Made by a program: the position numbers and the translations under genes | In this document: positions 15,841-38,522 of the stretch, piece after piece | Position numbering within the stretch: position 1 is the first letter of the stretch | How the letters are laid out: each line of letters begins with the position of its first letter | The notes under the pieces: model-generated | Databases searched by the model: none | What the model saw: only the letters and a program-made list of their open reading frames with translations | What the model was told of the DNA's origin: nothing | NCBI GenBank assembly: GCA_020200095.1 | Contig: JAIVJJ010000028.1 | Coordinates: 18,628-67,277, forward strand | Direction: 5' to 3' | From: Acidobacteriota bacterium | Lineage (GTDB): Bacteria; Acidobacteriota; Blastocatellia; Pyrinomonadales; Pyrinomonadaceae | Length of the DNA stretch: 48,650 nt

Positions 15841-15939
15841 ATGAAAACATTAATCAAAAACGGACGAATTGTAACGGCGGTTGACGATTACCGCGCCGAT
15901 ATTTTAATCGGAGACGAAACAACTTCACTTTGCGCCTAG
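15841..15939 (+). pseudogene. Duplicated 5' end of hydA (32-codon remnant)
   Basis: [32 protein letters not shown] versus intact hydA at 17360 [35 protein letters not shown] nearly identical for ~80 bp then diverges. Confidence 0.93.
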
Positions 15940-15975: not shown

Positions 15976-16266
15976 ATGAGAACGACAAACATTGCCGAAC
16001 TGAAGAACCATTTGAGCAGTTTTTTAGCCGACGTAAAACGCGGCGAGGAAATTTTAATCAGCGATAGAAATCAACCGATTGCCAAAATTGTTCCGCTTCA
16101 CAACACTTCGGATTTTTCCGCCGAAGAATTGGCTTTGGCAGCGGCGGGGATTTTGCGTCTGCCCGAAGAAAGCGAGGCTTCCGAATCGTTTTTGAAAGAA
16201 AAACGCTCCACTTTGAAAAGCGAAACGGTAATCAAAGCCATAATTGACGAACGCGATGAAGACTGA
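15976..16266 (+). CDS. Phd/YefM/VapB-type antitoxin
   Basis: TNIAELKNHLSSFLADVKRGEEILISDRNQPIAKIVPL is the Phd/YefM signature. Confidence 0.9.
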   Translation: MRTTNIAELKNHLSSFLADVKRGEEILISDRNQPIAKIVPLHNTSDFSAEELALAAAGILRLPEESEASESFLKEKRSTLKSETVIKAIIDERDED

Positions 16267-16696
16267 AATTGCCTTTTGGGATACGAGTGCGATTTTGCCG
16301 CTTTGCTGTTCGCAAGTTTTTACAACAAAGTCAAAAAAGTGGCTGCGAAAATATCCGAAAATCGTCGTTTGGTGGGGAACTTCGGTTGAAATCAACAGCG
16401 GTTTGGCGAGGCTCAAACGGAACGGCGATTTAACGGAAAAAGAAACGGTCAAAGCCTTGCGTTTGTGGGAAAAACTCAAGAAGACTTGCCGCATCGTTTC
16501 GCCTGTCGAAAGAATTATCGAATTGGCAAATGATTTGCCCGAAAATTACAATTTGCGGGCGTTGGATTCGTTTCAACTAGCGGCGGCACTCGTCTGGTGT
16601 CAGGAAAAACCGCGCCGTCGCCCGTTTATTACGGCTGATGAGCAATTGGCAAAAGCGGCTGAGAAAGCAGGATTCAATGAAATTTTGTTGACTTGA
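16256..16696 (+). CDS. PIN-domain toxin (VapC family)
   Basis: FWDTSAILPLC start, LRALDSFQLAAALVW and FITADEQLAKAAEKAG end; overlaps the antitoxin. Confidence 0.88.
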   Translation: MKTEIAFWDTSAILPLCCSQVFTTKSKKWLRKYPKIVVWWGTSVEINSGLARLKRNGDLTEKETVKALRLWEKLKKTCRIVSPVERIIELANDLPENYNLRALDSFQLAAALVWCQEKPRRRPFITADEQLAKAAEKAGFNEILLT

Positions 16697-16780
16697 GAAG
16701 AAGTGTCTGAAATTTTGCGGGAAATCAAAACTGATTTGGCGGCTTAAATTGAAATAAAATATACAAAACACAGAGACATT

Positions 16781-17317
16781 ATGAAAAGGTTGTTATTAGT
16801 TTTTTGGATTTTAATTACTGTTTCGGCAGTTTTTGCTCAAACAGAAGAAACGAGCGATGAAACTTTACTGAAAAGAGCTGTTTCGCTGTCAGACAACAAA
16901 TTTCACGAACTAGAAATAAAAAGAGACGGCGTGTATTTGGACGGCACAAGAAAAAACAAATCAGACAATCTTTTTGTAACAGTTACGTTTTTGTCTGAGA
17001 CGGCTGAATATTGGGAATACGATAATTCCGGGTATTGGTTTTTACTTGGAACGGATATGGCAACCGGAATGTGTGGAATTCCACATTACGCAATGATTCA
17101 CGTTGATTCAAACGGAAATATACGAGTTTCAAAAGAAAGTCCATCAGCTTGTATTGGTGATTTTCCTATTTTGATTGAATTCAAATTAAGTTTTGATAAG
17201 CAGTGCAATCAACGCCCCATTTGGAAAATATCAAATTCATTAGAATTTGACGGCTGCACTTTTAATTGGAAAGATTTGCAAACTACACAAAAAACTAAAA
17301 CACGAAAAAGAAAGTAA
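16781..17317 (+). CDS. Hypothetical secreted protein
   Basis: Signal peptide (KRLLLVFWILITVSAVFAQ); no family recognised. Confidence 0.6.
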   Translation: MKRLLLVFWILITVSAVFAQTEETSDETLLKRAVSLSDNKFHELEIKRDGVYLDGTRKNKSDNLFVTVTFLSETAEYWEYDNSGYWFLLGTDMATGMCGIPHYAMIHVDSNGNIRVSKESPSACIGDFPILIEFKLSFDKQCNQRPIWKISNSLEFDGCTFNWKDLQTTQKTKTRKRK

Positions 17318-17359: not shown

Positions 17360-18739
17360 ATGAAAACACTAATCAAAAACGGACGAATCATCACGGCGGT
17401 TGACGATTACCGCGCCGATATTTTAATCGAAGACGAAACGATTTCCATCATTGGCAAAACGCTCGAAATGGAAGCCGACGTAACGATTGATGCAGGCAGA
17501 AAACTCGTCATTCCGGGCGGCATTGACCCGCACACGCATATGGAATTGCCGTTTGGCGGGACGTATTCGTCGGACGATTTTTTTAGCGGAACGCGCGCAG
17601 CGGCGTTTGGCGGGACGACGACGATTATTGATTTCGCCGTGCAGACCAAAGGCGAAGCGATGACGGCGGGCGTTGACCGTTGGCACAAAAAGGCGGAGGG
17701 AAAATGCGCGATTGATTACGGTTTTCACCTTATCACGACCGAATTTGAAGACGGCGACGAGCGTGAGATGTATCGCCTGATGGACGAAGGCATCACGAGC
17801 TTTAAGTTGTTTATGGCTTATCCGGGCGTTTTTCTGGCGGACGACGCGACGATTTTTCGGGCGATGAGCGCGGCGGGAAATCGCGGCGGTTTGATTTGTA
17901 TGCATGCCGAAAACGGAATCGTGATAAATGAAATTATCAAACGCGCACTCGCGCAGGGGCGAACTGCGCCGAAATATCACGCTTTGACGCGCCCGACGAT
18001 TGCGGAAGCCGAAGGCGTGCATCGCGCGATTGCGATTGCGGAGATGGCTGAATCGCCCGTTTATATCGTGCATTTGTCCTGCACCGATGCGCTGAACAAA
18101 GTCCGCGAAGCCCGCGACCGAGGCATCGCCGCGTTTGCCGAAACCTGCCCGCAGTATCTTTTTCATTCAATCGAAGATTACGGCGACGATTTCGAGGGCG
18201 CGAAATACGTGATGACACCGCCGCTTCGTGAAAAGCACAATCAGGCGGAATTGTGGAAAGGTTTGAAAATGGACGACCTTCAAGTCATCTCCACCGACCA
18301 TTGCCCGTTTTGTATGAAAGAGCAAAAGGAATTGGGCAAAGATGATTTTTCAAAAATCCCGAACGGCGCGCCCGGCGTGGAAAATCGAATGTCGCTGATT
18401 TACAACGGCGGAGTCGTCGAAAATCGAATTTCCTTGAATCGGTTCGTCGAACTGACTTCGACCGCAGCCGCGAAAATGTTCGGGATGTTTCCGAAAAAAG
18501 GCACCATCGCCGTCGGTTCGGATGCTGACATCGTGATTTTTGATGCGGAGAAGGAACACACTTTTGGGGTTGCGAACGAACATATGAACGTGGATTATTC
18601 GTCTTACGAAGGTTGGAAGGTAAAAGGCAAAGTCGAAACAGTTTTATCGCGCGGTCGCGTCGTGATTGAAAACGGCGAGCACAAAGGAAAGGCTGGCGAC
18701 GGGCAATTTTTGAAGCGCGGAACTTGCGTCAATATTTAG
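17360..18739 (+). CDS. hydA: Dihydropyrimidinase (D-hydantoinase)
   Basis: [62 protein letters not shown]-term [14 protein letters not shown]. Confidence 0.96.
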
Positions 18740-18746
18740 CTTAAAA

Positions 18747-21048
18747 ATGGCTAATGATACGGCAAACAATTTAGAAGCGGGTAGATCGCTTGCTCATTAT
18801 CGAATCTTAAAAAAACTCGGGGCGGGCGGAATGGGCGAAGTTTATCTGGCGGAAGACACGCACCTTCGTCGCAAAATCGCGCTCAAAATCTTGCTGCAAA
18901 CGCTCGCCTCCGACCAAAGAAGCGCTTGACCTTGCCGAGCAAATTACCTTTGCGCTGTCGGCGGCACATGCGGCGGGCATTGTTCATCGAGACATCAAGC
19001 CGGAAAACATTATGCTGCGTGAAGACCGGCTGGTGAAAGTTTTGGATTTCGGCTTGGCGAAATTAACCGAAAAGAGAGAAGTCAGTCTCGACACTGAAGC
19101 CGAAACGCGCGCACTCGTGAAAACGAATCCGGGCGTGGTGATGGGAACTGTCAGCTATATGTCGCCCGAACAAGCCAGAGGAAAAGACACGGACGCGAGA
19201 ACCGATATTTTTAGTCTCGGCTGTGTGCTTTATGAAATGCTCACGCAAAGATTGCCGTTTTCGGGCGAGACAATCAACGACATGATTGCCGCAATTTTGA
19301 AAAGCGAGCCTTTGTCGCCGACAAATTTTAATTCAGAAATTCCTGCCGAACTCGAACGAATTGTTTTGAAGTCTTTGGCGAAAGACCGGGAAGAGCGTTA
19401 TCAAACCGCGAAAGATTTGTCGGTTGATTTACGACGATTAAAAAGACAGATGGAACTTGGCGCAGAGATTGAGCGCACAAAACCGCCGTACAAATCAGCA
19501 GAAAACGCGACGGAAAACGCCACGCGAATTCTTTCGGCACGTCCGACTTCGAGCGCGGAGTATGTAGTGAGTGAAGCCAGAAAGCATAAACTCGGTTTTG
19601 TAGTCGCAGCGGTAATTTTACTACTGGCGATTGGCGGATTAGGCGTTTGGTATTTTGGCAATCGCCCGTTAAACACAAAACAAATCGAATCAATCGCCGT
19701 GATGCCGTTTATCAACGAAAGCGGCAACGCCGATACGGAATATCTGTCGGATGGAATGACGGAAACGCTGATCGGCAGTTTGTCGCAATTGCCGAATTTG
19801 AACGTGAAGGCGCGGTCGTCTGTGTTTCGTTACAAAGGCAAAGATGCGGACGTGAAGACAATCGGCAAAGAATTAAACGTACAGGCTATCTTGAACGGGC
19901 GCGTCACACAGCGCAGCGACCAATTAACGCTGAGCCTGGAATTGGTTGACGCGCAGACGGAGAACGTCATTTGGAGCGAGCGATACAATCGCAAACAAGC
20001 CGACCTCGTTTCATTGCAAAGCGAGATTGCCCGCGACGTTTCAAGTAAATTGAAAACCAAACTGTCGGGCGCGGACGAGCAACGCTTGGCAAAGAACTAC
20101 ACGGCAAACGCCGAATCCTATCAACTTTATTTGCAAGGGCGTTTCTTTTGGAACAAGCGCACGGTCAAAGATATTCGGAAATCAATCGAATATTTCCAGC
20201 AGGCTGTCGCGCTTGATCCGAACTACACGCTGGCTTACACCGGACTTGCCGATGCTCATACTGTTCTCCCAACATATGGCGGCGCACCGTCACGTGAAGT
20301 ATTGCCGAAGGCGCGCGAAGCCGCGCTCAAAGCCTTATCGCTCGATGACCAATTAGCTGAATCTCACATCTCGCTCGGTATGATTTTGAATTATTATGAT
20401 TACGACTTTGCCGGAGCGGAGCGCGAATTTCGACGCGCTATTGAACTTAATCCAAACTCTGCGGCGGCGCATCAGTTCTACGGCAATCTCCAAATTCACC
20501 TCGGCAGATTCGAAGAAGCCTACTCCGAATTGAGTCGTGCGCTGGAGATTGAACCGCTCTCGCCGCTCATCAATCGTTTTTACGGTTTAGCCTTGCTCTA
20601 CGACAGAAGATATGATGAAAGCGCAACGCAGTTAAAAAAGACGCTTGAACTTGATGCTGGTTTTGTCCCGGCTTATGACACTCTGGCGAACGTCTATCGC
20701 GCGCAAGGCAAACACGCTGATAGCGTTGAAGCATTTGCCAAAGCAGAAGAAGCATTGGGCAATCACGAAGCGGCAGTTTTGATGCGAGAGATTTTCGCCA
20801 AAGGCGGCTGGCAGAAATTTCTAAGGGCTATGATTGATCAGCCTCAACTGAACTACAGAAAATCAAGATACATCGTGGCAACATATCACGCGGAACTTGG
20901 AGAAAAAGACAAAGCATTTGCCGAACTGAACAAGTCTTACGAAGAGCGCGAATTCTTCATGATTGTACTCAAAGTTGACCCGCGCTTTGACCATTTGCGT
21001 GACGACCCGCGCTTACAGGAATTGTTGAGAAAAGTCGGTTTTCCATAA
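18747..21048 (+). pseudogene. Ser/Thr protein kinase with TM segment and TPR region, carrying an N-lobe deletion and frameshift at ~18905-18916
   Basis: [21 protein letters not shown]...IALKIL then stop; next frame resumes [35 protein letters not shown]...DFGLAKL...; C-term SIAVMPF..., TPRs. Confidence 0.85.
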
Positions 21049-21055
21049 CTAAGGC

Positions 21056-21148
21056 GGTATTCGGCAAAGGGAAATTAATGCGGGTGAACAAAGCGATTAT
21101 GCAGGCGACGGACAATTTTTGAAGCGCGGAACTTGTGTGACTATGTAA
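21056..21148 (+). pseudogene. Duplicated 3' end of hydA, scar 1
   Basis: [29 protein letters not shown] versus hydA C-term [24 protein letters not shown]. Confidence 0.92.
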
Positions 21149-21168
21149 AGTTAGGAGGAAAGGTGAAT

Positions 21169-21666
21169 ATGAACGCAATGCTTAAGATATTTTCGCTCAT
21201 CTTGATACTTGGTGCCTGCTCTGCTGCGCTGGCTCAAGCCACTGGCGACGACGCAGAGATTCGGGCAATTGCCTCGAATTGGGAGAGAGCGTGGAACAAA
21301 CATGATATGAAGGCGCTCGCCAGGTTGTTTACCGACGATGCAGATTTCGTCAACGTCGGCGCAAAGCATTGGAAGGGGCGCAAAGAGATTGAAGCACAAC
21401 ACTCAGCTCGCTTGGGTCAATTTCTTCAAAGCACATGGGCGACCAAGACTGTCGCTGTTGAATACTTGAAGCCAGATATTGCGCTCGCACATATTGAATG
21501 GAGTCTCTCTGGTGATAAAGAGCCGGACGGCACACCTCGCAAAGCACGAGACGGTGTTTTTACATGGGTCTTAATCAAGAAGAGCGGCAAGTGGTTAATC
21601 CGCGCCGCGCAGAACACAAATGTCAGTAATTTGCCGCCGCCTGTTGCTGTTCCAAAGCTGATGTAA
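21169..21666 (+). CDS. SgcJ/EcaC-like NTF2-family secreted protein
   Basis: AGGAGGAA RBS then ATG; IRAIASNWERAWNKHDMKALARLFTDDADFVNVGAKHWKGRKEI. Confidence 0.85.
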   Translation: MNAMLKIFSLILILGACSAALAQATGDDAEIRAIASNWERAWNKHDMKALARLFTDDADFVNVGAKHWKGRKEIEAQHSARLGQFLQSTWATKTVAVEYLKPDIALAHIEWSLSGDKEPDGTPRKARDGVFTWVLIKKSGKWLIRAAQNTNVSNLPPPVAVPKLM

Positions 21667-21736
21667 TGTTCAGCGCTAATAACAAGCAAAAGAATACGAG
21701 CCGAAATCAGGTGATTATTTAAAGTTAGGAGAAAAA

Positions 21737-22681
21737 ATGAAATTTATTTTAGTTTTATTGCTCTTTCCGATTTTGTTTGGGAAAGCGTTCGGTCAAAATG
21801 CCCAGCCTGTAAAAATTACGGCAGGCGGCGTTGAATTTCATTACATTGAAAAGGGGCAAGGCGAGCCGCTTGTTCTGCTTCACGGCGGTGTCAGCGATTA
21901 TCGGTTGTGGGACGCGCAGATAGAGGAGTTTTCCCGAAACTATCGTGTTATTTCCTATAGCCGACGCTTTCATTACCCGAATAAAAATTCGTTGGACGCC
22001 GAATATCGCGGGGCGGAAACCGATGCCGAAGACCTTCTAAGCTTTTTGCGCAAACTTAAACTCAAGCGAGTTCATCTGGTCGGGCTTTCTTACGGCGCGC
22101 TTACCGCGCTGATTTTTGCCCTTAAACATCCCGGAATGGTTCGCTCAATGGTTCTCGCCGAACCGCCCGCGCATCAATTAATCAGAGATTTGCCCGGCGG
22201 CGAAACTGTCTATCAGGATTTTATAAACGCTTTAAAGCCTTCCGTAGAAGCGTTCAAAAAGGGCAAGGACAAAGAAGCGTTGAGAATTTTCTTTGCCGCT
22301 CTGGGTCGAAAACTCGACAGCCAGCCGCCCGCCGCCATCGAAGCGGTTATGCAAAACGCCCAGGCAATTAAAGCTATTAACACATCGCCGGAACCGTTTC
22401 CGAAAATTTCAAAAGAGAAACTGCGGCGATTAAAAATTCCGGTTTTAATTATCACAGGCGAAAATACGGTTAAGATTCATAAACTTGTGGACGAGGAACT
22501 CGCACGGCTGCTTCCGAACGCAAAGGAATTCGTTATTCCAAACGCAGGACACGGAACGCCGCGCGAGAATCCGCAAGTTTTTAACGAAACGGTGCTAAAG
22601 TTTTTGGCAACCGCCGCACATAAAACAAGCAAGATAAAAACGGCGAACACACAGGCAAAGCCCGCGACGGACAATTTTTGA
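21737..22681 (+). CDS. Alpha/beta hydrolase; last codons read through hydA-tail DNA in another frame
   Basis: HYIEKGQGEPLVLLHGGVSDYRLWD; HLVGLSYGALTALIFALKHPGMV; VIPNAGHGTPRENPQVFN. Confidence 0.92.
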   Translation: MKFILVLLLFPILFGKAFGQNAQPVKITAGGVEFHYIEKGQGEPLVLLHGGVSDYRLWDAQIEEFSRNYRVISYSRRFHYPNKNSLDAEYRGAETDAEDLLSFLRKLKLKRVHLVGLSYGALTALIFALKHPGMVRSMVLAEPPAHQLIRDLPGGETVYQDFINALKPSVEAFKKGKDKEALRIFFAALGRKLDSQPPAAIEAVMQNAQAIKAINTSPEPFPKISKEKLRRLKIPVLIITGENTVKIHKLVDEELARLLPNAKEFVIPNAGHGTPRENPQVFNETVLKFLATAAHKTSKIKTANTQAKPATDNF

Positions 22682-22707
22682 AACGCGGGACTTGCGTGAA
22701 TATTTAG
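22636..22707 (+). pseudogene. Duplicated 3' end of hydA, scar 2
   Basis: Frame ending at the TAG at 22705 reads [23 protein letters not shown] versus hyd[24 protein letters not shown]. Confidence 0.95.
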
Positions 22708-22732
22708 AAACTCAGGAGAATACAATCGGCGA

Positions 22733-24649
22733 ATGCCAAATGATGAAACAAAAACTCTAAAAGCTTATTCTTTGCTTGGTCATTACCGGATTGTCAAAAA
22801 ACTTGGCGCGGGCGGAATGGGCGAAGTTTATCTCGCTGAAGACACCAAACTTGACCGTCGTGCTGTGCTTAAAATCCTGCCCGAAGATTTGGCAAATGAC
22901 GCGGAAAGAATGCGCCGTTTCGTGCAGGAAGCAAAATCTGCTTCGGCTCTGAATCATCCGAACATCATCACAATTTACGAAATCGGTGAAACTGACGACA
23001 CGCATTTCATTGCAACAGAATATATCGAAGGCGAAACTTTGCACAGCCGTTTGAAAAGCGAGCCGATGAATCTTAAATCGGTGCTTGATACTGCCATTCA
23101 GATTGCGTCCGCTTTGCAAGCCGCTCACAGCGCAGGCATTGTTCACCGCGACATCAAGCCGGAAAATGTGATGATTCGTCCTGACGGGTTGGTAAAAGTT
23201 CTCGATTTCGGCATCGCCAAGCTGACCGAGAAAAAGCCGGAAGCGATTGATGCGGAAGCGGCGACGGCAATTAAGGCGGGAACAAGTCCCGGAATGATAA
23301 TCGGCACGGCGAGTTATATGTCTCCCGAACAAGCGCGGGGCAAAGAGGTTGATGCGCGAAGCGATATTTTTAGTTTCGGAGTTGTGCTGTATGAAATGAT
23401 AACGGGCAAAAGGGCGTTTGACGGCGAAACGGCGATGGATGTTATCGGCGCGATTTTGCACAAAGAACCGTCGCCGTTGAGCGAAACCGAAATACCCAAA
23501 GAACTGCGGCGAATCGTGGAAAAAAGTTTGCGAAAAGACCGCGAAGAACGCTACCAAACGACGAAAGATTTACGAATTGATTTAAAAGACATTCGGCAGG
23601 AATTAGAGTTTCAAAATAAGCTGGAACGCACGGCTGCGCCAAATCGGGAAGAAGCTAAAACGCAAATTTTAGAAATACCGACGACGGCAGACGTGACCGC
23701 GTCCGAAAGCGGAACTATGCACGCGACTTCGAGTGCGGAATACGTCGTCGGTGAAATCAAAAATCATAAACTCGGTTTCGCGGTCGGTGTTGTAGTTTTA
23801 CTGGCGACGCTCGGATTTGGCTACTGGTTTTTCACCAAACAGCGCGACAACTCGCTCGCCGCCTTAAATGTTCCTCGTGCGGTTGACGCGCCGAAACCCG
23901 CATCGAAACTTTACTGGCAAATGACGGAAGCCGAGCGGGTGGTTTTTATTCGGGAACGAGCGCGGCACATTCAAACGCTGATTGGCGACGAGCCGACGGA
24001 ATTTGACGACGAAGAATTACGCGCGATTAAAGTCGAGATTGACCGTTATGTCGAAAAGAAAGATAGTTTATCGCAGAAACCGTTTGAAGAAGGCTTGCGC
24101 GTGATTTACGGTCGCGCCAGCCAGTATGCGCCGCTTGTGATTCGAGCTTATGAAGCGCGGCAAGTTCCGTCCGCTTTAGGACTTTATCAAGCGATGATTG
24201 AGTCCGAATATAACGATTGTCCGACTCATCCTCATCCGACCGGACCCGTGGGATTATTTCGATTTTCGCGGAAAATGGCGGTGATTTACGGCTTGACACC
24301 AAAGGATTATTGCAGCGTGGAGAAACAGTCGAACGCGGCGGCACATCATATGTCGGATTTAATCAGCGACTTCGGCGAAGAAAAATCTAGTTGGACATTG
24401 GCTCTTTTCAGTTTCGATCAAGGCGGCGATAAAGTGCGCGAGTATTTGCGGCAGTTGCGCGGACGCGGCGTTGCGGAACGGAGTTTTTGGGCGATTTTCC
24501 GCCACGGGCAGAATTTGCAGCCGCCTTTGTTACCCGACGGAAAACAATATGTGCCACGCTTCTTTGCCGCAGCCATCATCGGCGAAACGCCTGAAGTTTT
24601 TGAACTTTCTACGCTGCCACTCTCAACTTTGAGCGGGAAAGGTAAATGA
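22733..24649 (+). CDS. Ser/Thr protein kinase - TM - lytic transglycosylase (SLT-like) fusion
   Basis: Intact kinase ([16 protein letters not shown]..., HRDIKPENV, DFGIAKL, APE-like SPEQARG), TM LGFAVGVVVLLATLGFGYWFF, then ALGLYQAMIESEYNDC...GPVGLFRFSRKMAVIYGL...AAHHMSDLI. Confidence 0.85.
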   Translation: MPNDETKTLKAYSLLGHYRIVKKLGAGGMGEVYLAEDTKLDRRAVLKILPEDLANDAERMRRFVQEAKSASALNHPNIITIYEIGETDDTHFIATEYIEGETLHSRLKSEPMNLKSVLDTAIQIASALQAAHSAGIVHRDIKPENVMIRPDGLVKVLDFGIAKLTEKKPEAIDAEAATAIKAGTSPGMIIGTASYMSPEQARGKEVDARSDIFSFGVVLYEMITGKRAFDGETAMDVIGAILHKEPSPLSETEIPKELRRIVEKSLRKDREERYQTTKDLRIDLKDIRQELEFQNKLERTAAPNREEAKTQILEIPTTADVTASESGTMHATSSAEYVVGEIKNHKLGFAVGVVVLLATLGFGYWFFTKQRDNSLAALNVPRAVDAPKPASKLYWQMTEAERVVFIRERARHIQTLIGDEPTEFDDEELRAIKVEIDRYVEKKDSLSQKPFEEGLRVIYGRASQYAPLVIRAYEARQVPSALGLYQAMIESEYNDCPTHPHPTGPVGLFRFSRKMAVIYGLTPKDYCSVEKQSNAAAHHMSDLISDFGEEKSSWTLALFSFDQGGDKVREYLRQLRGRGVAERSFWAIFRHGQNLQPPLLPDGKQYVPRFFAAAIIGETPEVFELSTLPLSTLSGKGK

Positions 24650-30547: not shown

Positions 30548-32038
30548 ATGACAAACAGTGAAACAATCCAACACGCGGACGGCAGAGTTGAATTGCGCGA
30601 AGCGGCGTTAGCGGAAATTGAAACCTCCCCGCTTTACAACGAAGACCTCGCGCCGGTTCCCGTCGAGCGGCGCAACTGGACGACGTATAACTACGCCGCG
30701 CTTTGGATTTCGATGGCGCATTGCATCCCGACTTATATGATGGCTTCGGGCTTGATTTCGGCGGGAATGAATTGGTGGCAGGCACTTGTTACGATTTTGC
30801 TCGGCAACGTGATTGTTCTCGCGCCGATTTTGCTCAACTCGCATCCGGGAACGAAATACGGCATTCCGTTTCCCGTGTTTGCGCGGGCGAGTTACGGCAC
30901 AATCGGCTCAAATCTTCCTGCGCTGATGCGGGCAATTGTCGCTTGCGGCTGGTTCGGGATTCAGGCGTGGATTGGCGGGCAGGCGATTCACATATTTTTC
31001 GCTTCTATAATTCCGAATTGGCAGACGATTCTCGGCGGCGCAATTGGCGGACACACGCCAACCGAATGGCTTTCGTTTTTGATTTTTTGGGCGATGAATA
31101 TCTTTATTATTTATCGCGGAATGGATCTTCTCAGACACGTCGAAAATTGGGCTGCGCCGTTTGTTTTAATTATGACGGCGGTTTTGCTCGCGTGGATTTT
31201 GTATCAAGCGGGCGGCGTTGGATTTTTATTAAACGAACCGGGAAAATTTCAAACCGCCGGAGAATTTTGGAAAATCTTCATTCCGTCTTTAACGGCGATG
31301 ATTGGATTTTGGGCGACGCTTTCACTAAATATGCCGGACTTTACGCGTTTTGGAAAAAGCCAGCGCGAGCAAGTCGTCGGGCAAACCGTCGCGTTGCCGA
31401 CGACAATGGTTATTTTCGCCGCGATGGGAATTTTAATAACTTCGGCGGCGGTTGTTGTGTTTCCGCATATGAAACCCGAAGAACTTTGGGACCCGGTGAA
31501 ATTGGTCGGGCAATTCAGCCAGCCACTTGTTGTAGCAATTTCGATGTTCACGATTGTCATCGCAACTTTATCGGTCAACATTGCGGCAAATGTCGTTTCA
31601 CCGGCTAACGATTTTGCCAACGCTTTTCCAAAATGGATTTCTTTTCGCACGGGCGGATTGATTACGGGAATCGTCGGAATTTTGATGCAACCCTGGAAAC
31701 TGCTCGCCGACCCAAGCGGTTATATTTTTTCGTGGCTGCTCGGTTATTCGGGCGGTTTAGGTTCGATTGCCGGAGTTTTGATTGCGGATTACTGGCTAGT
31801 TCGCCGTAAAAATTTGAATCTCGGCGATTTGTATCGCACAAAAGGTGTTTATCGTTACACAAGCGGCTGGAATTGGCGGGCGGCAGCGGCAACAATTTTG
31901 GGTTGCTTTTTCGCATGGATTGGTTTGATAATTGAATCCCTTAGATTTTTGTATGATTATGCGTGGTTTGTCGGCTTCGGCGTTTCGTTTTTCGTGCATT
32001 TTGCGCTAATGAAGGCATTTCCGCCGAAAGAAAATTAG
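30548..32038 (+). CDS. NCS1 family nucleobase:cation symporter
   Basis: SPLYNEDLAPVPVERRNWTTYNYAALWISMAHCIPTYMMASGLISAGMNWWQALVTILLGN; NMPDFTRFGKS. Confidence 0.95.
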   Translation: MTNSETIQHADGRVELREAALAEIETSPLYNEDLAPVPVERRNWTTYNYAALWISMAHCIPTYMMASGLISAGMNWWQALVTILLGNVIVLAPILLNSHPGTKYGIPFPVFARASYGTIGSNLPALMRAIVACGWFGIQAWIGGQAIHIFFASIIPNWQTILGGAIGGHTPTEWLSFLIFWAMNIFIIYRGMDLLRHVENWAAPFVLIMTAVLLAWILYQAGGVGFLLNEPGKFQTAGEFWKIFIPSLTAMIGFWATLSLNMPDFTRFGKSQREQVVGQTVALPTTMVIFAAMGILITSAAVVVFPHMKPEELWDPVKLVGQFSQPLVVAISMFTIVIATLSVNIAANVVSPANDFANAFPKWISFRTGGLITGIVGILMQPWKLLADPSGYIFSWLLGYSGGLGSIAGVLIADYWLVRRKNLNLGDLYRTKGVYRYTSGWNWRAAAATILGCFFAWIGLIIESLRFLYDYAWFVGFGVSFFVHFALMKAFPPKEN

Positions 32039-32689: not shown

Positions 32690-32788
32690 ATGTCAAGAAT
32701 AATAAAATGCGGTTTGATTCAGGCAGCAAACGACGCGCCGACCGACGCGCCGATTGATGGTATAAAATTTAGTGTTTCGATAAAATGA
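32690..32788 (+). pseudogene. Duplicated 5' end of the N-carbamoyl-beta-alanine amidohydrolase gene (32-codon remnant)
   Basis: MSRIIKCGLIQAANDAPTDAPIDGIKFSVSIK* versus intact gene at 33514 MSRTIKCGLIQAHNIAPTDAPIAEIKKAN; stop overlaps the next ATG. Confidence 0.94.
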
Positions 32789-33492
32789 AGAGAAAAATTA
32801 TTATTCTAGGATGTCTTTTGCTCCTATTATTCGGAGTTTGCATATTGCTTTTTCAAATCAGCAAGTCGCGGACGTTCCAATTTTTCGGAGAAATATATCC
32901 TCGCGTTGAAACACAACAAAAGGTCGTCGCGCTTACGTTCGACGATGGTCCCACACGCAAACATACTGATGAAATTCTCGGCATTCTGCGGGAAGAAAAT
33001 GTTAAAGCGACTTTTTACCTGGTGGGAAGCGCGATTGAAGAAAATCAAGGCGAAACCGAGAAAATAATCCAGGAAGGTCACGAAATAGGAAATCATACTT
33101 ACCATCACAAACGGATGATTTTGGTTAGTCCCGATGTCGTCAAAAACGAAATCGAAACAACGGATGAATTAATCAAAAAGGCGGGTTATAAAGGAGACAT
33201 TACGTTTCGTCCGCCTTTCGGGAAAAAATTATTTGCGCTGCCTTTTTATTTGTCCGAACATAACCGCAACACGATAACCTGGGACGTAGACCCTGAAACT
33301 TTTGTTGAAAAGTCGGAAGACATTATCAAATATACGCTCAAAAATACAAAAAACGGTTCAATAATTTTGCTTCACGTCGCGTATGATAGTCGTGCGGAAT
33401 CAATGAAATCCGTCCGCCCGATAATCAAAAATCTGCGGGAAAAAGGTTTTGAATTTAAAACGGTTTCGGAACTATTGTCAATAAAAAATTAG
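32785..33492 (+). CDS. Polysaccharide deacetylase (NodB-like) family protein
   Basis: VVALTFDDGPTRKHTDEILGIL; GHEIGNHTYHHKRM; TFRPPFGKK. Confidence 0.93.
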   Translation: MKRKIIILGCLLLLLFGVCILLFQISKSRTFQFFGEIYPRVETQQKVVALTFDDGPTRKHTDEILGILREENVKATFYLVGSAIEENQGETEKIIQEGHEIGNHTYHHKRMILVSPDVVKNEIETTDELIKKAGYKGDITFRPPFGKKLFALPFYLSEHNRNTITWDVDPETFVEKSEDIIKYTLKNTKNGSIILLHVAYDSRAESMKSVRPIIKNLREKGFEFKTVSELLSIKN

Positions 33493-33513: not shown

Positions 33514-34383
33514 ATGTCGAGAACAATAAAATGCGGTTTGATTCAAGCACACAACATCGCGCCGACCGACGCGCCGATTGCGGAAATTAAAAAAGCGAAT
33601 CTTGAACATCAAATGAAAATGGTCGAAGACGCCGCCAAACAAGGCGTGCAGATGCTCTGTTTTCAGGAGATTTTCACCACGCCGTATTTCTGCGCCGAAC
33701 AGCAGACGCGCTGGTATGAAGCGGTCGAAAAAATTCCCGACGGACCGACCGTAAAAATGATGCAGGATGTCGCCAAGCAATACGGAATGGTTTTAATCGT
33801 GCCGATTTATGAAGAGGAAATGTCGGGCGTTTATTACAACTCGGCGGCGGTCATTGATGCCGACGGCAAGTATCTGGGCAAGTATCGCAAGACGCATATT
33901 CCGCACGTCAATCCTGGCTTTTGGGAGAAATTTTATTTTCGTCCCGGCAATCTCGGCTATCCGACGTTTGAAACGGCATTTGCTAAAATCGGCGTTTATA
34001 TCTGCTACGACCGCCATTTTCCCGAAGGCGCAAGGTGTTTGGGTTTAAACGGCGCGGAAATTATTTTCAATCCGTCAGCAACCGTCGCCGGATTGAGCGA
34101 ATATCTCTGGAAATTAGAGCAACCCGCGCACGCCGTCGCCAACGGTTATTTCGTCGGCGCAATCAACCGCGTCGGTTACGAAGCCCCTTGGAACATCGGC
34201 GAATTTTACGGTCAAAGCTATTTCTGCGACCCGCGCGGGCAAATCGTCGCCGAAGCCGCGCGTGATAAAGACGAACTCGTCGTCGCGGATTTGGATTTCG
34301 ATATGATTCGAGAAGTGCGAAACACCTGGCAGTTTTTCCGCGATAGAAGACCGGATAGCTATGATTCTTTGGTAGCCGATTAA
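33514..34383 (+). CDS. Nitrilase-superfamily N-carbamoyl-beta-alanine amidohydrolase (beta-ureidopropionase)
   Basis: QMLCFQEIFTTPYFCAEQ, KYRKTHIPH, IGVYICYDRHFPEGARCLGLNGAEIIFNPSA: Glu-Lys-Cys nitrilase motifs; neighbours preT and preA. Confidence 0.93.
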   Translation: MSRTIKCGLIQAHNIAPTDAPIAEIKKANLEHQMKMVEDAAKQGVQMLCFQEIFTTPYFCAEQQTRWYEAVEKIPDGPTVKMMQDVAKQYGMVLIVPIYEEEMSGVYYNSAAVIDADGKYLGKYRKTHIPHVNPGFWEKFYFRPGNLGYPTFETAFAKIGVYICYDRHFPEGARCLGLNGAEIIFNPSATVAGLSEYLWKLEQPAHAVANGYFVGAINRVGYEAPWNIGEFYGQSYFCDPRGQIVAEAARDKDELVVADLDFDMIREVRNTWQFFRDRRPDSYDSLVAD

Positions 34384-34387
34384 AAAT

Positions 34388-35815
34388 ATGTCATTAACAC
34401 ACGATTCACCCCTAAACATCGAACAAATCGAACGTAATTTCCGCGACATCGCGCCCGCGCTTTCGGAAGCCGAAGCGGTTCTTGAATCTAATCGCTGCGT
34501 TTACTGCTACGATGCGCCCTGCACGCGGGCTTGTCCGACCCATATTGACGTGCCTTCGTTTATCAAAAAAATCGCGTCGGGAAATCTTTTAGGTTCGGCG
34601 CGGGTGATTTTCGATGCGAATCCGATTGGCGCGACTTGCGCCCGCGTTTGTCCGGTCGAAGTTTTATGCGAAGGTGCGTGCGTCGAGAAAACTTTGATGG
34701 ACAAGCCGATTGAGATTGGGCGACTTCAGCGTTACGCAACAGATTTTGTAATGCGAAACGAGCGCGATGTTTTAAAGGCTGGCGCGCCGAACGGAAAATC
34801 AGTCGGCATTATCGGTTCAGGTCCCGCCGGTCTTTCGTGCGCGACATATTTAGCGAGGCTCGGCTACGCGGTAACGATTTACGATAAAAAACCTCTGCCC
34901 GGCGGACTCGACACATACGGAATGGCGGAGTATAAAATGTCGCAAATCGTTTCGGTTGATGAAGCGCGGCAGGTCGAACGTCTCGGCGTGAAATTTCGTC
35001 TTAATACGGAAATCATTTCAAACACAAAGACCCAAGACCAAAAACCAAAGACCGAAAATCAAGTTTCGTTTGAAGATTTACATTCGAATCACGACGCGAT
35101 TTTTCTCGGTATCGGTTTGGGCGCGACTAATAAATTAAACATCGAAGGCGAAAATTTAAGCGGCGTGATTGACGCTTTGGATTTTATCGAAAGAATAAAA
35201 ACACGCGATTGGAAAAGCGTTCCGCTCGGCAAGACGATTGCGGTTATTGGCGCGGGCAACACGGCTATTGACGCCGTGACTCAAGCGAAACGATTAGGCG
35301 CGGAAAAGGTTTTGATGGTTTATCGCAAAACCGCGAAAGAAATGCCCGCCTACGCTTACGAATACGAACTGGCGAAAAAAGACGGCGTTGAATTCGTCTG
35401 GCAAGCCGCGCCGGTTGAAATTCTTGCAGGCAAAAATGGTTTGTCTTTGCGGTACGAGAAAACGGACGGCTCAAATCAAATTTTTGAAATTGCGTGCGAT
35501 ATGATTATCAAAGCTATCGGACAGCAAAAAAGCGTCGGTTTTTTATCGCAAATTTCCGATGTCGAACTTGACGAAAAAGGTCGCATTGTCGTCAATACCG
35601 AAACGATGCAAACGACAAATCCGAAAATTTTCGCGGGCGGCGATTGCGTCAACGGCGGGCGCGATTTTAATTTAACTGGCGAACAAGTCGAATTTGCAGG
35701 CGCGAAAATTCCATTCATCGAAAAAATTCACGGCGAAATGCCTATCGTTACGCCCGCTGCGTTTGATGAACCGGCAATTCCGGCGGAAGATTTAGGAGTG
35801 AAATCGTATGGCTGA
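34388..35815 (+). CDS. preT: NAD-dependent dihydropyrimidine dehydrogenase subunit PreT
   Basis: CVYCYDAPCTRACPTHIDVPSFIKKIASGN; GSGPAGLSCATYLARLGYAVTIYDKKPLPGGL; adjacent to preA. Confidence 0.94.
   Translation: MSLTHDSPLNIEQIERNFRDIAPALSEAEAVLESNRCVYCYDAPCTRACPTHIDVPSFIKKIASGNLLGSARVIFDANPIGATCARVCPVEVLCEGACVEKTLMDKPIEIGRLQRYATDFVMRNERDVLKAGAPNGKSVGIIGSGPAGLSCATYLARLGYAVTIYDKKPLPGGLDTYGMAEYKMSQIVSVDEARQVERLGVKFRLNTEIISNTKTQDQKPKTENQVSFEDLHSNHDAIFLGIGLGATNKLNIEGENLSGVIDALDFIERIKTRDWKSVPLGKTIAVIGAGNTAIDAVTQAKRLGAEKVLMVYRKTAKEMPAYAYEYELAKKDGVEFVWQAAPVEILAGKNGLSLRYEKTDGSNQIFEIACDMIIKAIGQQKSVGFLSQISDVELDEKGRIVVNTETMQTTNPKIFAGGDCVNGGRDFNLTGEQVEFAGAKIPFIEKIHGEMPIVTPAAFDEPAIPAEDLGVKSYG
35026..35060. 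repeat. Intragenic heptad repeat in preT (five heptads)
   Basis: AAAGACC CAAGACC AAAAACC AAAGACC GAAAATC encoding KTQDQKPKTENQ. Confidence 0.85.
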
Positions 35816-35846
35816 TTCAAGCATTGTTTTTACGAGAACGACATAA
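35808..35846 (+). pseudogene. Duplicated 5' end of preA (12-codon remnant overlapping the preT stop)
   Basis: ATGGCTGATTCAAGCATTGTTTTTACG (MADSSIVFT) versus preA at 37254 ATGGCAGATTTAAGCGTAAATTTTGCG (MADLSVNFA); 20 of 27 nt match. Confidence 0.75.
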
Positions 35847-35852
35847 TTTTCT

Positions 35853-35880
35853 TGATATGTATAGATATGTCGGTATAATC
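35853..35880 (+). promoter_or_regulatory. Promoter/operator of brnTA
   Basis: TTGATA-16 nt-TATAAT; contains GATATGT direct repeat and lies within a CGACATA...TATGTCG inverted repeat. Confidence 0.55.
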
Positions 35881-35884
35881 GTTT

Positions 35885-36184
35885 ATGGAATTTGAATGGG
35901 ATGAAAACAAGAACATCGAAAACATCAAACGTCGCGGCATCAGCTTTGAAAAAGCTGTCAAAGCCTTTGATGACGACTTGGCAATCCCGCTTGAAGATGT
36001 AGAACATAGCCACGAAAACGAAACTCGCTACGCCTTGATTGGAATGTGCCAAGCAGCAGGTTTAATTTTTATTTCCTTCACCTTTCGGGGCGAAAATTGC
36101 CGAATTATTTCCGCTCGAAAAGCCAGCAAGAAAATGGAGAGAATGTATGCCGATAACGATAGAAAAAGAGGAAAACTTATCTGA
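35885..36184 (+). CDS. brnT: BrnT family toxin
   Basis: MEFEWDENKNIENIKRRGISFEKAVKAFDD...ISFTFRGENCRIISARKASKKMERMY. Confidence 0.95.
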   Translation: MEFEWDENKNIENIKRRGISFEKAVKAFDDDLAIPLEDVEHSHENETRYALIGMCQAAGLIFISFTFRGENCRIISARKASKKMERMYADNDRKRGKLI

Positions 36185-36491
36185 AAGCGAGTTGGACTCG
36201 CAACTCGATAAAATGAAACGCTTGCCGCGCGGGAGTTTCAAAGCCAAACCAAACGCCACCAAACTTGAAAACTGTAAAGTGAAAATTTCTCTCTACATTG
36301 ACGGCGACGTTTTGGAGTATTTCCGTTGTCGCGCCGAACCGCCGCACGCCGCGCCATATCAAACGCAAATCAATAACGAACTACGGCGCATTATGGAAAA
36401 CGATTCGACGGACGCGGCTAGTCTGGAAAAAGATATTTTGAACAACGAAGAATTTTTGCGGGCTTTGAAGGAAAAACTTGCGACAGTTTAA
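36147..36491 (+). CDS. brnA: BrnA family antitoxin
   Basis: KVKISLYIDGDVLEYFRCRAE...YQTQINNELRRIM; overlaps brnT. Confidence 0.93.
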   Translation: MPITIEKEENLSESELDSQLDKMKRLPRGSFKAKPNATKLENCKVKISLYIDGDVLEYFRCRAEPPHAAPYQTQINNELRRIMENDSTDAASLEKDILNNEEFLRALKEKLATV

Positions 36492-36582
36492 TTTTATTTG
36501 CAAGCAAAAAGGTTAGCTTGACCGGAACTATTTAGACTTTTGTGCGTCTAATACCTTAAAGACAAATTTCTTATTTTGGAAG

Positions 36583-37248
36583 GTGCTTATGAAAACTTTA
36601 TTTACTGCTTGCTTTATCATTTTGTCGTTTTCCTTCAATTGCTTTGCGACATGGGCATTGATTTCAACGGATGAACTCGTGAAGGAAAGTGATTTAATAG
36701 TTATAGGAACATTACATTCTGTTTCAAGATATACAAAGGATAATGTTGATTATTCGGAAGGAGAAATCGTTGTCGAAAAAGTTATTTCAGGTAATATCAA
36801 AACAACTGAAGGTTTTCCTCTCAAATTGGGCGACGAAATTAAATTTAAATGGCAGGCTTCTACTTTAATCGTCTGCCCACGTCTAGACCATAGCGGTAAT
36901 GAAAATGTAAAGGGAGTTTGGCTTCTGGAAGTTGAAAGTGACGGAACAGTGAGCGCGAATTATCCTCGACGTTTTAATTCCTTAGATGAAATGAGTGAGA
37001 TAAAAAAGATTTTGCGAAAAACGAAGGTAAGAGAAACATCGCAAAGAATAAAATTATTAAACGAAAACCCTTTAACTATCACGAATCAACAAATACAAAA
37101 TTCAGACACACTTGAAAACCAAACAATAGCGCCGATAAAAACACCTGCAATTGTTGGTAACTATTCAACTTCCAATGCTTTGCTTGTTGCTTTATTTTCA
37201 TTGGGACTTTATTGGATTTTGTATCGAAGCAGATTCAAAATCAGGTAA
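36583..37248 (+). CDS. Hypothetical secreted protein with C-terminal TM anchor
   Basis: Signal peptide MKTLFTACFIILSFSFNCFA; C-term ALLVALFSLGLYWILYRSRFKIR. Confidence 0.6.
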   Translation: MLMKTLFTACFIILSFSFNCFATWALISTDELVKESDLIVIGTLHSVSRYTKDNVDYSEGEIVVEKVISGNIKTTEGFPLKLGDEIKFKWQASTLIVCPRLDHSGNENVKGVWLLEVESDGTVSANYPRRFNSLDEMSEIKKILRKTKVRETSQRIKLLNENPLTITNQQIQNSDTLENQTIAPIKTPAIVGNYSTSNALLVALFSLGLYWILYRSRFKIR

Positions 37249-37253
37249 AAATT

Positions 37254-38522
37254 ATGGCAGATTTAAGCGTAAATTTTGCGGGTATCAAATCGCCAAATCC
37301 TTTTTGGCTGGCGAGCGCACCGCAGACGAATATGGGTTCGATGGTCGAACGCGCGTTTGACGCGGGTTGGGGCGGCGCGGTTTGGAAGACTTTGGGCGAG
37401 CCGATTGTCAACGTTTGTTCCCGCTTAGCTTCGCTTGATAATGGCGCTAACAGAATGATTGGTTTGAACAATATCGAATTGATTACCGACCGACCGCTTG
37501 ACGTAAATTTGAAGGAGATTTTCGAGTGCAAAAAGAAGTATCCGAATAACGCCGTTATCGTTTCTTTGATGGTTGAATCAAAACGCGAGGCTTGGCACGA
37601 GATTGTCAAACGTGCTCAAGACACGGGCGCGGACGGTTTTGAATTAAACTTCGGCTGCCCGCACGGAATGAGCGAGCGCGGAATGGGCGCGGCGATGGGG
37701 CAAGTTCCCGAATATACTTGTATGGTGACGGAATGGGTGAAGGAAGTTTCCGCATTGCCGGTGATTGTGAAATTAACGCCGAATGTTACAAATATCATTC
37801 CGCCGGGACGTGCTGCGGCGAAAGGCGGAGCGGATGCAGTTTCTTTAATAAACACAATTAACTCGGTGATGGGCGTTGATATTGACACGATGATTCCTTA
37901 TCCAAACGTCAACGGAATGGCGGCGCACGGCGGGTATTGTGGAACTGCTGTCAAACCGATTGCGCTGAATATGGTTTCCGAACTTGCGCGTGATGCAGAA
38001 GTCAACATCCCGATTTCCGGCATCGGAGGCATTAACACCTGGCGCGACGCGGTTGAGTTTCTTCTGCTCGGCGCGTCGAATGTTCAAGTCTGCACCGCCG
38101 TGATGCACTACGGTTATCGAATTGTCGAAGATATGATTGACGGTTTGAATAATTATCTAGACGAGAAGGGTTTTCAGAGTGTTAATGACATCATCGGAAA
38201 ATCAGTCAATCGCGTTACCGATTGGGGCGCGCTCGATTTAAATTACAAAACCGTCGCCCGCGTTAATTTCGATAATTGTATTCGATGCAATCTGTGTCAT
38301 ATCGCCTGCGAGGACGGAGCGCATCAATGCATTGATTTTACCGAAGTGAACGGCTTGCGTTATCCGATTGTGGACGAACACGAGTGCGTCGGCTGCAATC
38401 TTTGTTATCTGGTTTGTCCCGCGCCGGGCGCGATTTCGATGGTCAGATTGGACGACGGAAGAAATCCGATAACCTGGCGCGAACTGACGAGCAAACCGCC
38501 CGAAACGATGACCGGCGATTAA
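37254..38522 (+). CDS. preA: NAD-dependent dihydropyrimidine dehydrogenase subunit PreA
   Basis: MADLSVNFAGIKSPNPFWLASAPQTNMGSMVERAFDAGWGGAVWKT; two 4Fe-4S motifs CIRCNLCHIAC and CVGCNLCYLVC. ATG at 37254. Confidence 0.96.
   Translation: MADLSVNFAGIKSPNPFWLASAPQTNMGSMVERAFDAGWGGAVWKTLGEPIVNVCSRLASLDNGANRMIGLNNIELITDRPLDVNLKEIFECKKKYPNNAVIVSLMVESKREAWHEIVKRAQDTGADGFELNFGCPHGMSERGMGAAMGQVPEYTCMVTEWVKEVSALPVIVKLTPNVTNIIPPGRAAAKGGADAVSLINTINSVMGVDIDTMIPYPNVNGMAAHGGYCGTAVKPIALNMVSELARDAEVNIPISGIGGINTWRDAVEFLLLGASNVQVCTAVMHYGYRIVEDMIDGLNNYLDEKGFQSVNDIIGKSVNRVTDWGALDLNYKTVARVNFDNCIRCNLCHIACEDGAHQCIDFTEVNGLRYPIVDEHECVGCNLCYLVCPAPGAISMVRLDDGRNPITWRELTSKPPETMTGD

Follow-up and report, generated by a model that had tools for sequence, protein, structure and literature searches.

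How can two genes that once overlapped come to lie 1.4 kb apart, with a toxin-antitoxin system between them, while both remain intact? This question is raised by preT and preA, the genes for the subunits of dihydropyrimidine dehydrogenase, in a 48.65-kb stretch of DNA (the window, to which all coordinates refer unless otherwise stated) located within contig C162 of the 4.3-Mb draft genome G000 of a soil bacterium of the Acidobacteriota. The window encodes reductive pyrimidine degradation: a hydantoinase, an NCS1 permease, a beta-ureidopropionase-type hydrolase, PreT and PreA. A decayed copy of the preA start persists at the end of preT, the two genes overlap without interruption in relatives, and comparable gene-start remnants (5' stubs) accompany insertions at two other genes of the same cluster. 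On balance, these stubs are probably scars of homology-facilitated illegitimate recombination with DNA of relatives carrying accessory genes (cargo) together with a core gene. Relatives were gathered by means of preA among the Pyrinomonadaceae/Blastocatellia of the Acidobacteriota; G002, G003, G004 and G008 belong to the same genus as G000, G035 and G055 to other genera. Domains were identified by Pfam and NCBIfam profile scans, in which selected cargo proteins were included and not all obtained a match, and stubs were sought by looking upstream of a gene for short copies of its own start. The preT-preA junction comprises the following features.

34388..35815, + strand: preT, NAD(P)H-dependent (PreT/GltD-like) subunit of dihydropyrimidine dehydrogenase (Pfam Fer4_20 and Pyr_redox_2; PF14691, PF07992)
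35808..35846, + strand: decayed preA 5' stub of 12 codons from ATG to TAA, in overlap with the preT stop; homology clear over about 15-29 nt
35852..35879, + strand: promoter-like element of brnTA, TTGATA-16-TATAAT, 5 nt before the brnT ATG (a resemblance to the consensus only)
35885..36184, + strand: brnT, RNase toxin of a type II toxin-antitoxin system (PF04365, E 8.7e-24)
36147..36491, + strand: brnA, antitoxin (PF14384, E 5.3e-7)
36589..37248, + strand: open reading frame (ORF) of secreted or membrane-anchored appearance, with a signal/transmembrane-looking segment; hidden Markov model matches in loci L051 and L111
37254..38522, + strand: preA, catalytic subunit of dihydropyrimidine dehydrogenase, intact, with its own start context (NF006183, NCBIfam PreA, 673 bits)

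The stop codon of preT (35813-35815) closes a C-terminal tail reading ...PAEDLGVKSYG, encoded by a gene end ...TCG TAT GGC TGA that is shared, stop included, with G002 and in part with G003, G026 and G035. This stop sits in ATGGCTGA, and an overlapping ATG at 35808 opens the 12-codon ORF MADSSIVFTRTT*. A previous sequence-only reading of the window had noticed this ORF as a preA-like remnant holding the preT stop and had proposed that the two genes once overlapped directly; both points were borne out. The 20 of 27 nt that it reported as identical to the start of the window's own preA were recovered as such, and 22 of 29 nt are identical to the preA start of G002. The first 8 nt (ATGGCTGA) are also the coding end of preT, and thus only the 21 nt past the stop count as independent evidence. 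Among these, 14 match the preA of G002, a score reached by 0.023% of the window positions (about 2e-4 per position) and at 2 of the 1521 positions that follow a TGA.

The spacing and the preA starts of relatives, which the same reading had put forward as a check, were compared next to this stub. In G002, whose preT and preA are 88% and 95% identical to those of the window, no insertion is present and the two genes overlap directly: the junction GGAGTGAAATCGT/ATGGCTGATTTAAGC (GGAGTGAAATCGT-ATGGCTGATTTAAGCGTAAATTTTGCGGG) places the preA start exactly at the position of the stub, behind an identical preT tail. A direct overlap is also found in G035. In G003, a homologous decayed stub (ATGATTGATTTGAGCGCTGC...) is followed by a TTGATA-TATAAT promoter and brnT, as in the window, and in G026 a gap of 19 nt separates preT from preA, the old start being occupied by a decayed ATAGCTGATTT. 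The junction of G026 (L072 2880-2910) further shows ATAGCTGATTTTCTTGGAG around the stop codon of preT, which may be a scar left by an insertion since lost. The pattern named beforehand as refuting, a long spacer without any MAD-like start, does exist in G004, G008, G014 and G031; these genomes possess a preT that is a divergent copy or from which the C-terminal tail has been lost, and they therefore do not contradict the overlap kept by the closest relatives. The decayed preA start copy at 35808 is real. A mere chance resemblance behind preT would fit so short a match, with 14 of 21 independent positions only; it is extremely improbable given the frequency of 2e-4 per position at the very place predicted, the homologous stub of G003, the intact overlap of G002 and G035 and the clear examples at two neighbouring genes described below.

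The identity of the separated genes is well defined. PreA exceeds the NF006183 cut-off of 335 bits twofold and contains the DHO_dh and 4Fe-4S domains (PF01180, PF14697), and PreT contains the Fer4_20 and pyridine-nucleotide oxidoreductase domains; the adjacency of their genes, direct in G002 and G035, is broken in the window by 1438 nt from the preT stop to the preA ATG. As already read from the sequence alone, this spacer holds brnTA and a membrane-anchored protein. The BrnT and BrnA domains stand in tandem, toxin first and both above cut-off, as in type II toxin-antitoxin systems, the toxin and antitoxin functions being predicted from sequence. No family was obtained for the ORF at 36589..37248 from the Pfam or NCBIfam scans; its homologues precede preA in L111 and a preA stub in G055. 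Promoter-like elements similar to that of the window lie upstream of brnT in G003, G004, G008, G014 and G031, and the recurrent position of the TATAAT-type element, 5 nt from the ATG in the window, suggests that the brnT transcript is probably leaderless.

The junction between preT and preA is a hypervariable site for accessory genes throughout the Pyrinomonadaceae. The spacer ranges from an overlap to 5.5 kb and contains BrnTA, GmrSD-type, PIN-type and Uma2-like genes (the PIN-type and Uma2 genes recognized by eye) as well as others without assignment. BrnTA follows preT directly, with a similar promoter layout, in G000, G003, G004, G008, G014, G015 and G031. In the brnT tree, the junction copies fall into two main groups at variance with the genera (G003 with G014, G000 with G004), which indicates exchange; a single ancestral, vertically inherited brnTA insertion was rejected on this ground. 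A divergent copy in the same tree, from G020, is located upstream of preT. The preT of G004 falls outside the G000/G002/G003 group and is only 73% identical to that of the window, while the beta-ureidopropionase of G004 is 94% identical.

The displaced preA start deduced from the sequence alone was thus upheld; its scope was drawn too narrowly, as further gene-end stubs exist in the same cluster and family. The corresponding features of the window are listed below.

15841..15939, + strand: dihydropyrimidinase/hydantoinase 5' stub, 87 nt, 79/87 identical, in-frame stop at 15937-15939
15976..17317, + strand: cargo, namely a Phd/YefM antitoxin (PF02604, E 4e-10), a PIN toxin (PF01850, E 6e-8) and a 178-aa secreted ORF without family
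17360..18739, + strand: intact dihydropyrimidinase/hydantoinase, so named from sequence and context
21101..21147, + strand: copy of the hydantoinase 3' end, 47 nt (41/47 identical), after an inserted kinase; a weaker copy at 22642-22706
30548..32038: NCS1 permease
32690..32788, + strand: beta-ureidopropionase 5' stub, 69 nt homologous, 59/69 identical, its in-frame stop overlapping the deacetylase ATG
32785..33492, + strand: polysaccharide deacetylase inserted between stub and intact gene (PF01522, E 7e-32)
33514..34383, + strand: intact beta-ureidopropionase-type carbon-nitrogen hydrolase (PF00795, E 8.5e-65)

The hydantoinase, beta-ureidopropionase and preA genes of the window thus have a common layout, consisting of a 5' stub, cargo and an intact gene, and at each of them a recipient gene end is displaced beside an intact copy. 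No direct repeats in the contig as read are stronger than those at the hydantoinase and beta-ureidopropionase genes, the paralogous repeats of a kinase region set aside. In that region (18669-22880), copies of the hydantoinase 3' end adjoin paralogous Ser/Thr kinase genes; the copy at 21101..21147 is possibly a hydantoinase 3' stub, but a tandem duplication of the kinase unit may be its origin instead. In the kinase ORF at 19012, which is probably frameshifted, the N-terminal half of the kinase domain is missing.

Of 59 genomes, 33 possess a hydantoinase orthologue, in many cases in a cluster with preTA, and stubs recur among the relatives. The hydantoinase gene of G002 has a 5' stub of 118 nt (85% identical), and that of G004 has two successive ones of 94 and 72 nt (93-94% identical), separated from the gene by cargo comprising PIN-type toxin-antitoxin genes, a NurA-like protein, an HNH protein and DruA. 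This two-stub locus (L211 1811-6023, minus strand), with its NurA-like, HNH and DruA (Druantia) genes, amounts to a defence-like array inside a catabolic cluster. Stubs of preA are found in G008 (59 nt, 95% identical) and in G055 (39 nt, 90% identical), where the stub directly follows the homologue of the window's secreted ORF and precedes preA by 115 nt. The hydantoinase stub of G002 is preceded by the C-terminal 34 residues of a PIN toxin (91% identity with that of the window) and followed by a MOSC gene and the hydantoinase gene; since the toxin end lies directly before the stub, the toxin preceded the hydantoinase first and the stub represents the start of the gene before the arrival of the MOSC gene. 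Mirror-image 3' stubs occur after the hydantoinase in G002 and G014 and, in G004, after the genes of a 1199-aa MetH-like, a 932-aa SecA-like and a 450-aa protein. At the MetH-like gene (L265 6368-9617), two copies of the last 63-85 nt are present, one located 173 nt behind the gene and the other behind an inserted gene block.

With a common detector, 13 right-side stubs (5' stubs upstream or 3' stubs downstream) were counted in 1331 kb of Pyrinomonadaceae sequence, a sample enriched for the pyrimidine cluster and hence no genome average, versus none in 654 kb of controls consisting of three other Blastocatellia genomes and non-family loci. Wrong-side stubs numbered 5 and 2, respectively. The genome-wide rate was based on about 198 kb of further G000 sequence, with no stub, and on 354 kb of G004, with 4. 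False matches in a first automatic scan, due to genes at most 20 nt from a locus end, were removed by eye.

The stub, the recurrence of such stubs, the variable cargo and the overlap maintained in relatives are all directly observed; from them we infer both a direction of transfer and homology-facilitated illegitimate recombination as its route. The preA gene would originally have begun inside the end of preT, the 12-codon ORF at 35808 being what remains of that 5' end. DNA of a relative, carrying accessory genes and a preA with its own start, would then have recombined with the resident chromosome, one end being joined through homology inside preA and the other, devoid of long homology, after a few codons of the resident preA. 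The product would be the old 5' stub, the cargo (BrnTA and the secreted protein, possibly acquired in more than one step) and a complete preA. As preT and preA overlapped, an insertion spares both genes only if the overlap is duplicated, and a stub and its intact gene must derive from one sequence that was present twice. The same process would have been repeated at the hydantoinase and beta-ureidopropionase genes of the cluster and in related species, and mirror-image events would have left the 3' stubs. The order preT, secreted ORF, preA, without BrnTA, is found in L111 and is possibly the donor arrangement.

The position and affinity of the repeats bear on this proposal. The clear 5' repeats all begin 0-13 nt before the ATG and are not scattered randomly around it, which would be expected of a gene arriving together with its new upstream neighbour; in addition, 5 of 8 stubs are closer to the intact gene of another species than to their own gene. 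Both observations speak against a long target-site duplication, by which an element inserted into a gene start would have copied 40-120 nt, the stub being the original and the intact 5' end the copy. Although such a duplication would account for direct repeats on both sides of the cargo and for insertions at gene ends that leave one intact gene, it is made improbable further by the variable repeat lengths and by the cargo itself. No integrase, transposase or other recombinase domain was found by Pfam in the scanned cargo, some of which gave no match at all; its content consists of toxin-antitoxin, nuclease, DruA, MOSC, kinase and similar domains. This absence also weighs against degenerate site-specific integrative elements that dock at gene starts or ends and supply the gene with a new end, in the manner of SXT at prfC. 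The geometry of a displaced gene end, an element and a restored gene would be the same, and the two successive stubs before one gene in G004 would suit such elements; given the many unrelated targets (hydantoinase, preA, beta-ureidopropionase and the MetH-like and SecA-like genes) and the differing stub lengths at the same gene, they are nevertheless very improbable. A further variant, which we regard as decidedly unlikely, would make of stub and cargo an integrase-free mobile cassette with the stub as its homology arm, excising via the gene start, re-entering the same gene in another cell and building arrays such as the two stubs of G004.

The length of the stubs bears on another course of events, in which donor integration gave two full gene copies around the cargo and most of one copy was deleted afterwards. 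The same end product would be obtained, with stubs of any length and occasional ones on the wrong side, such as those at L260 8322 and L263 2193, and a tandem partial duplication of the beta-ureidopropionase start is indeed present in L111. With no two-full-copy intermediate in the sampled loci and all clear 5' stubs under 120 nt, this course appears rather unlikely. The shortness of the clear 5' stubs (39-118 nt) is at the same time one of several points that weigh against homology-facilitated illegitimate recombination, as free illegitimate joining would give long ones too; excision may have removed longer repeats. No junction at which an identified donor had recombined was found; the preA stub is itself both short and decayed, and the nearest-neighbour differences amount to only a few nt per stub and are thus weak. 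The third-codon-position excess among the differences between stubs and genes (64 of 125) is equally expected from an aged simple duplication, and codon positions were discarded as a test, since they do not separate an ageing duplication from donor alleles. A greater similarity across species of the intact 5' ends than of the gene bodies, as would result from travel with the cargo, was weakly seen for the hydantoinase (5' synonymous identity 18-20 of 21-22 versus 0.52-0.64 in G020, G030 and G034) and absent for the beta-ureidopropionase, and was not used. As for the joining route, non-homologous end joining was rejected because Ku was not found in the genomes of the genus. DprA is present in 6 and ComEC in 8 of the 9 genus genomes, which is no proof of competence; ComEC was not found in G000 (87% complete).

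Gene-end stubs mark former gene starts and make the growth of an operon by insertion directly readable, and they show how overlapping genes become separated without loss. Toxin-antitoxin and defence-like genes may ride on core-gene homology rather than on integrases. With three stubs in one catabolic cluster and uninterrupted relatives at hand, the order of events is testable. A limited literature search returned no published account of such stubs at gene starts next to insertions into core catabolic operons, which is weak evidence of absence.

Compared with known systems, the PreT-PreA operon of the window is ordinary in that both subunits are intact and have the usual domains; it differs in its cistrons being split by 1.4 kb of inserted genes. 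The minimal mobile elements of Neisseria resemble the present site, as differing accessory genes lie between the same conserved neighbours and are exchanged without an integrase of their own; to our knowledge, displaced gene-end stubs are not part of their description, which sets them apart. Many of the small variable segments of bacterial genomes are short insertions attributed to illegitimate recombination, and direct repeats border some of them (PMC2884548); those repeats are mostly under 30 bp and are not tied to gene starts. Homology-facilitated illegitimate recombination is known from Acinetobacter, Streptococcus pneumoniae and Pseudomonas stutzeri and from the conjugation of E. coli (PMC3240628); works that demonstrate it in the laboratory are also cited in PMC5361080. 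The likeness lies in one homologous and one illegitimate end and in the addition of non-homologous genes beside a conserved gene; the process is known from laboratory transformation and conjugation, whereas here it is deduced from natural scars in which the old gene end is kept as a stub. It has also been proposed for the type VI secretion system effector-immunity arrays of Vibrio cholerae and for the orphan 3' ends of Rhs and contact-dependent growth inhibition loci (PMC5361080). There, as here, a new module enters by a homology anchor and displaces the old gene end, on the downstream side in their case, successive events building arrays. Those modules serve competition, whereas in the present cluster intact core genes of pyrimidine catabolism are left with toxin-antitoxin, defence-like and other cargo between them, and stubs are found at gene starts too.

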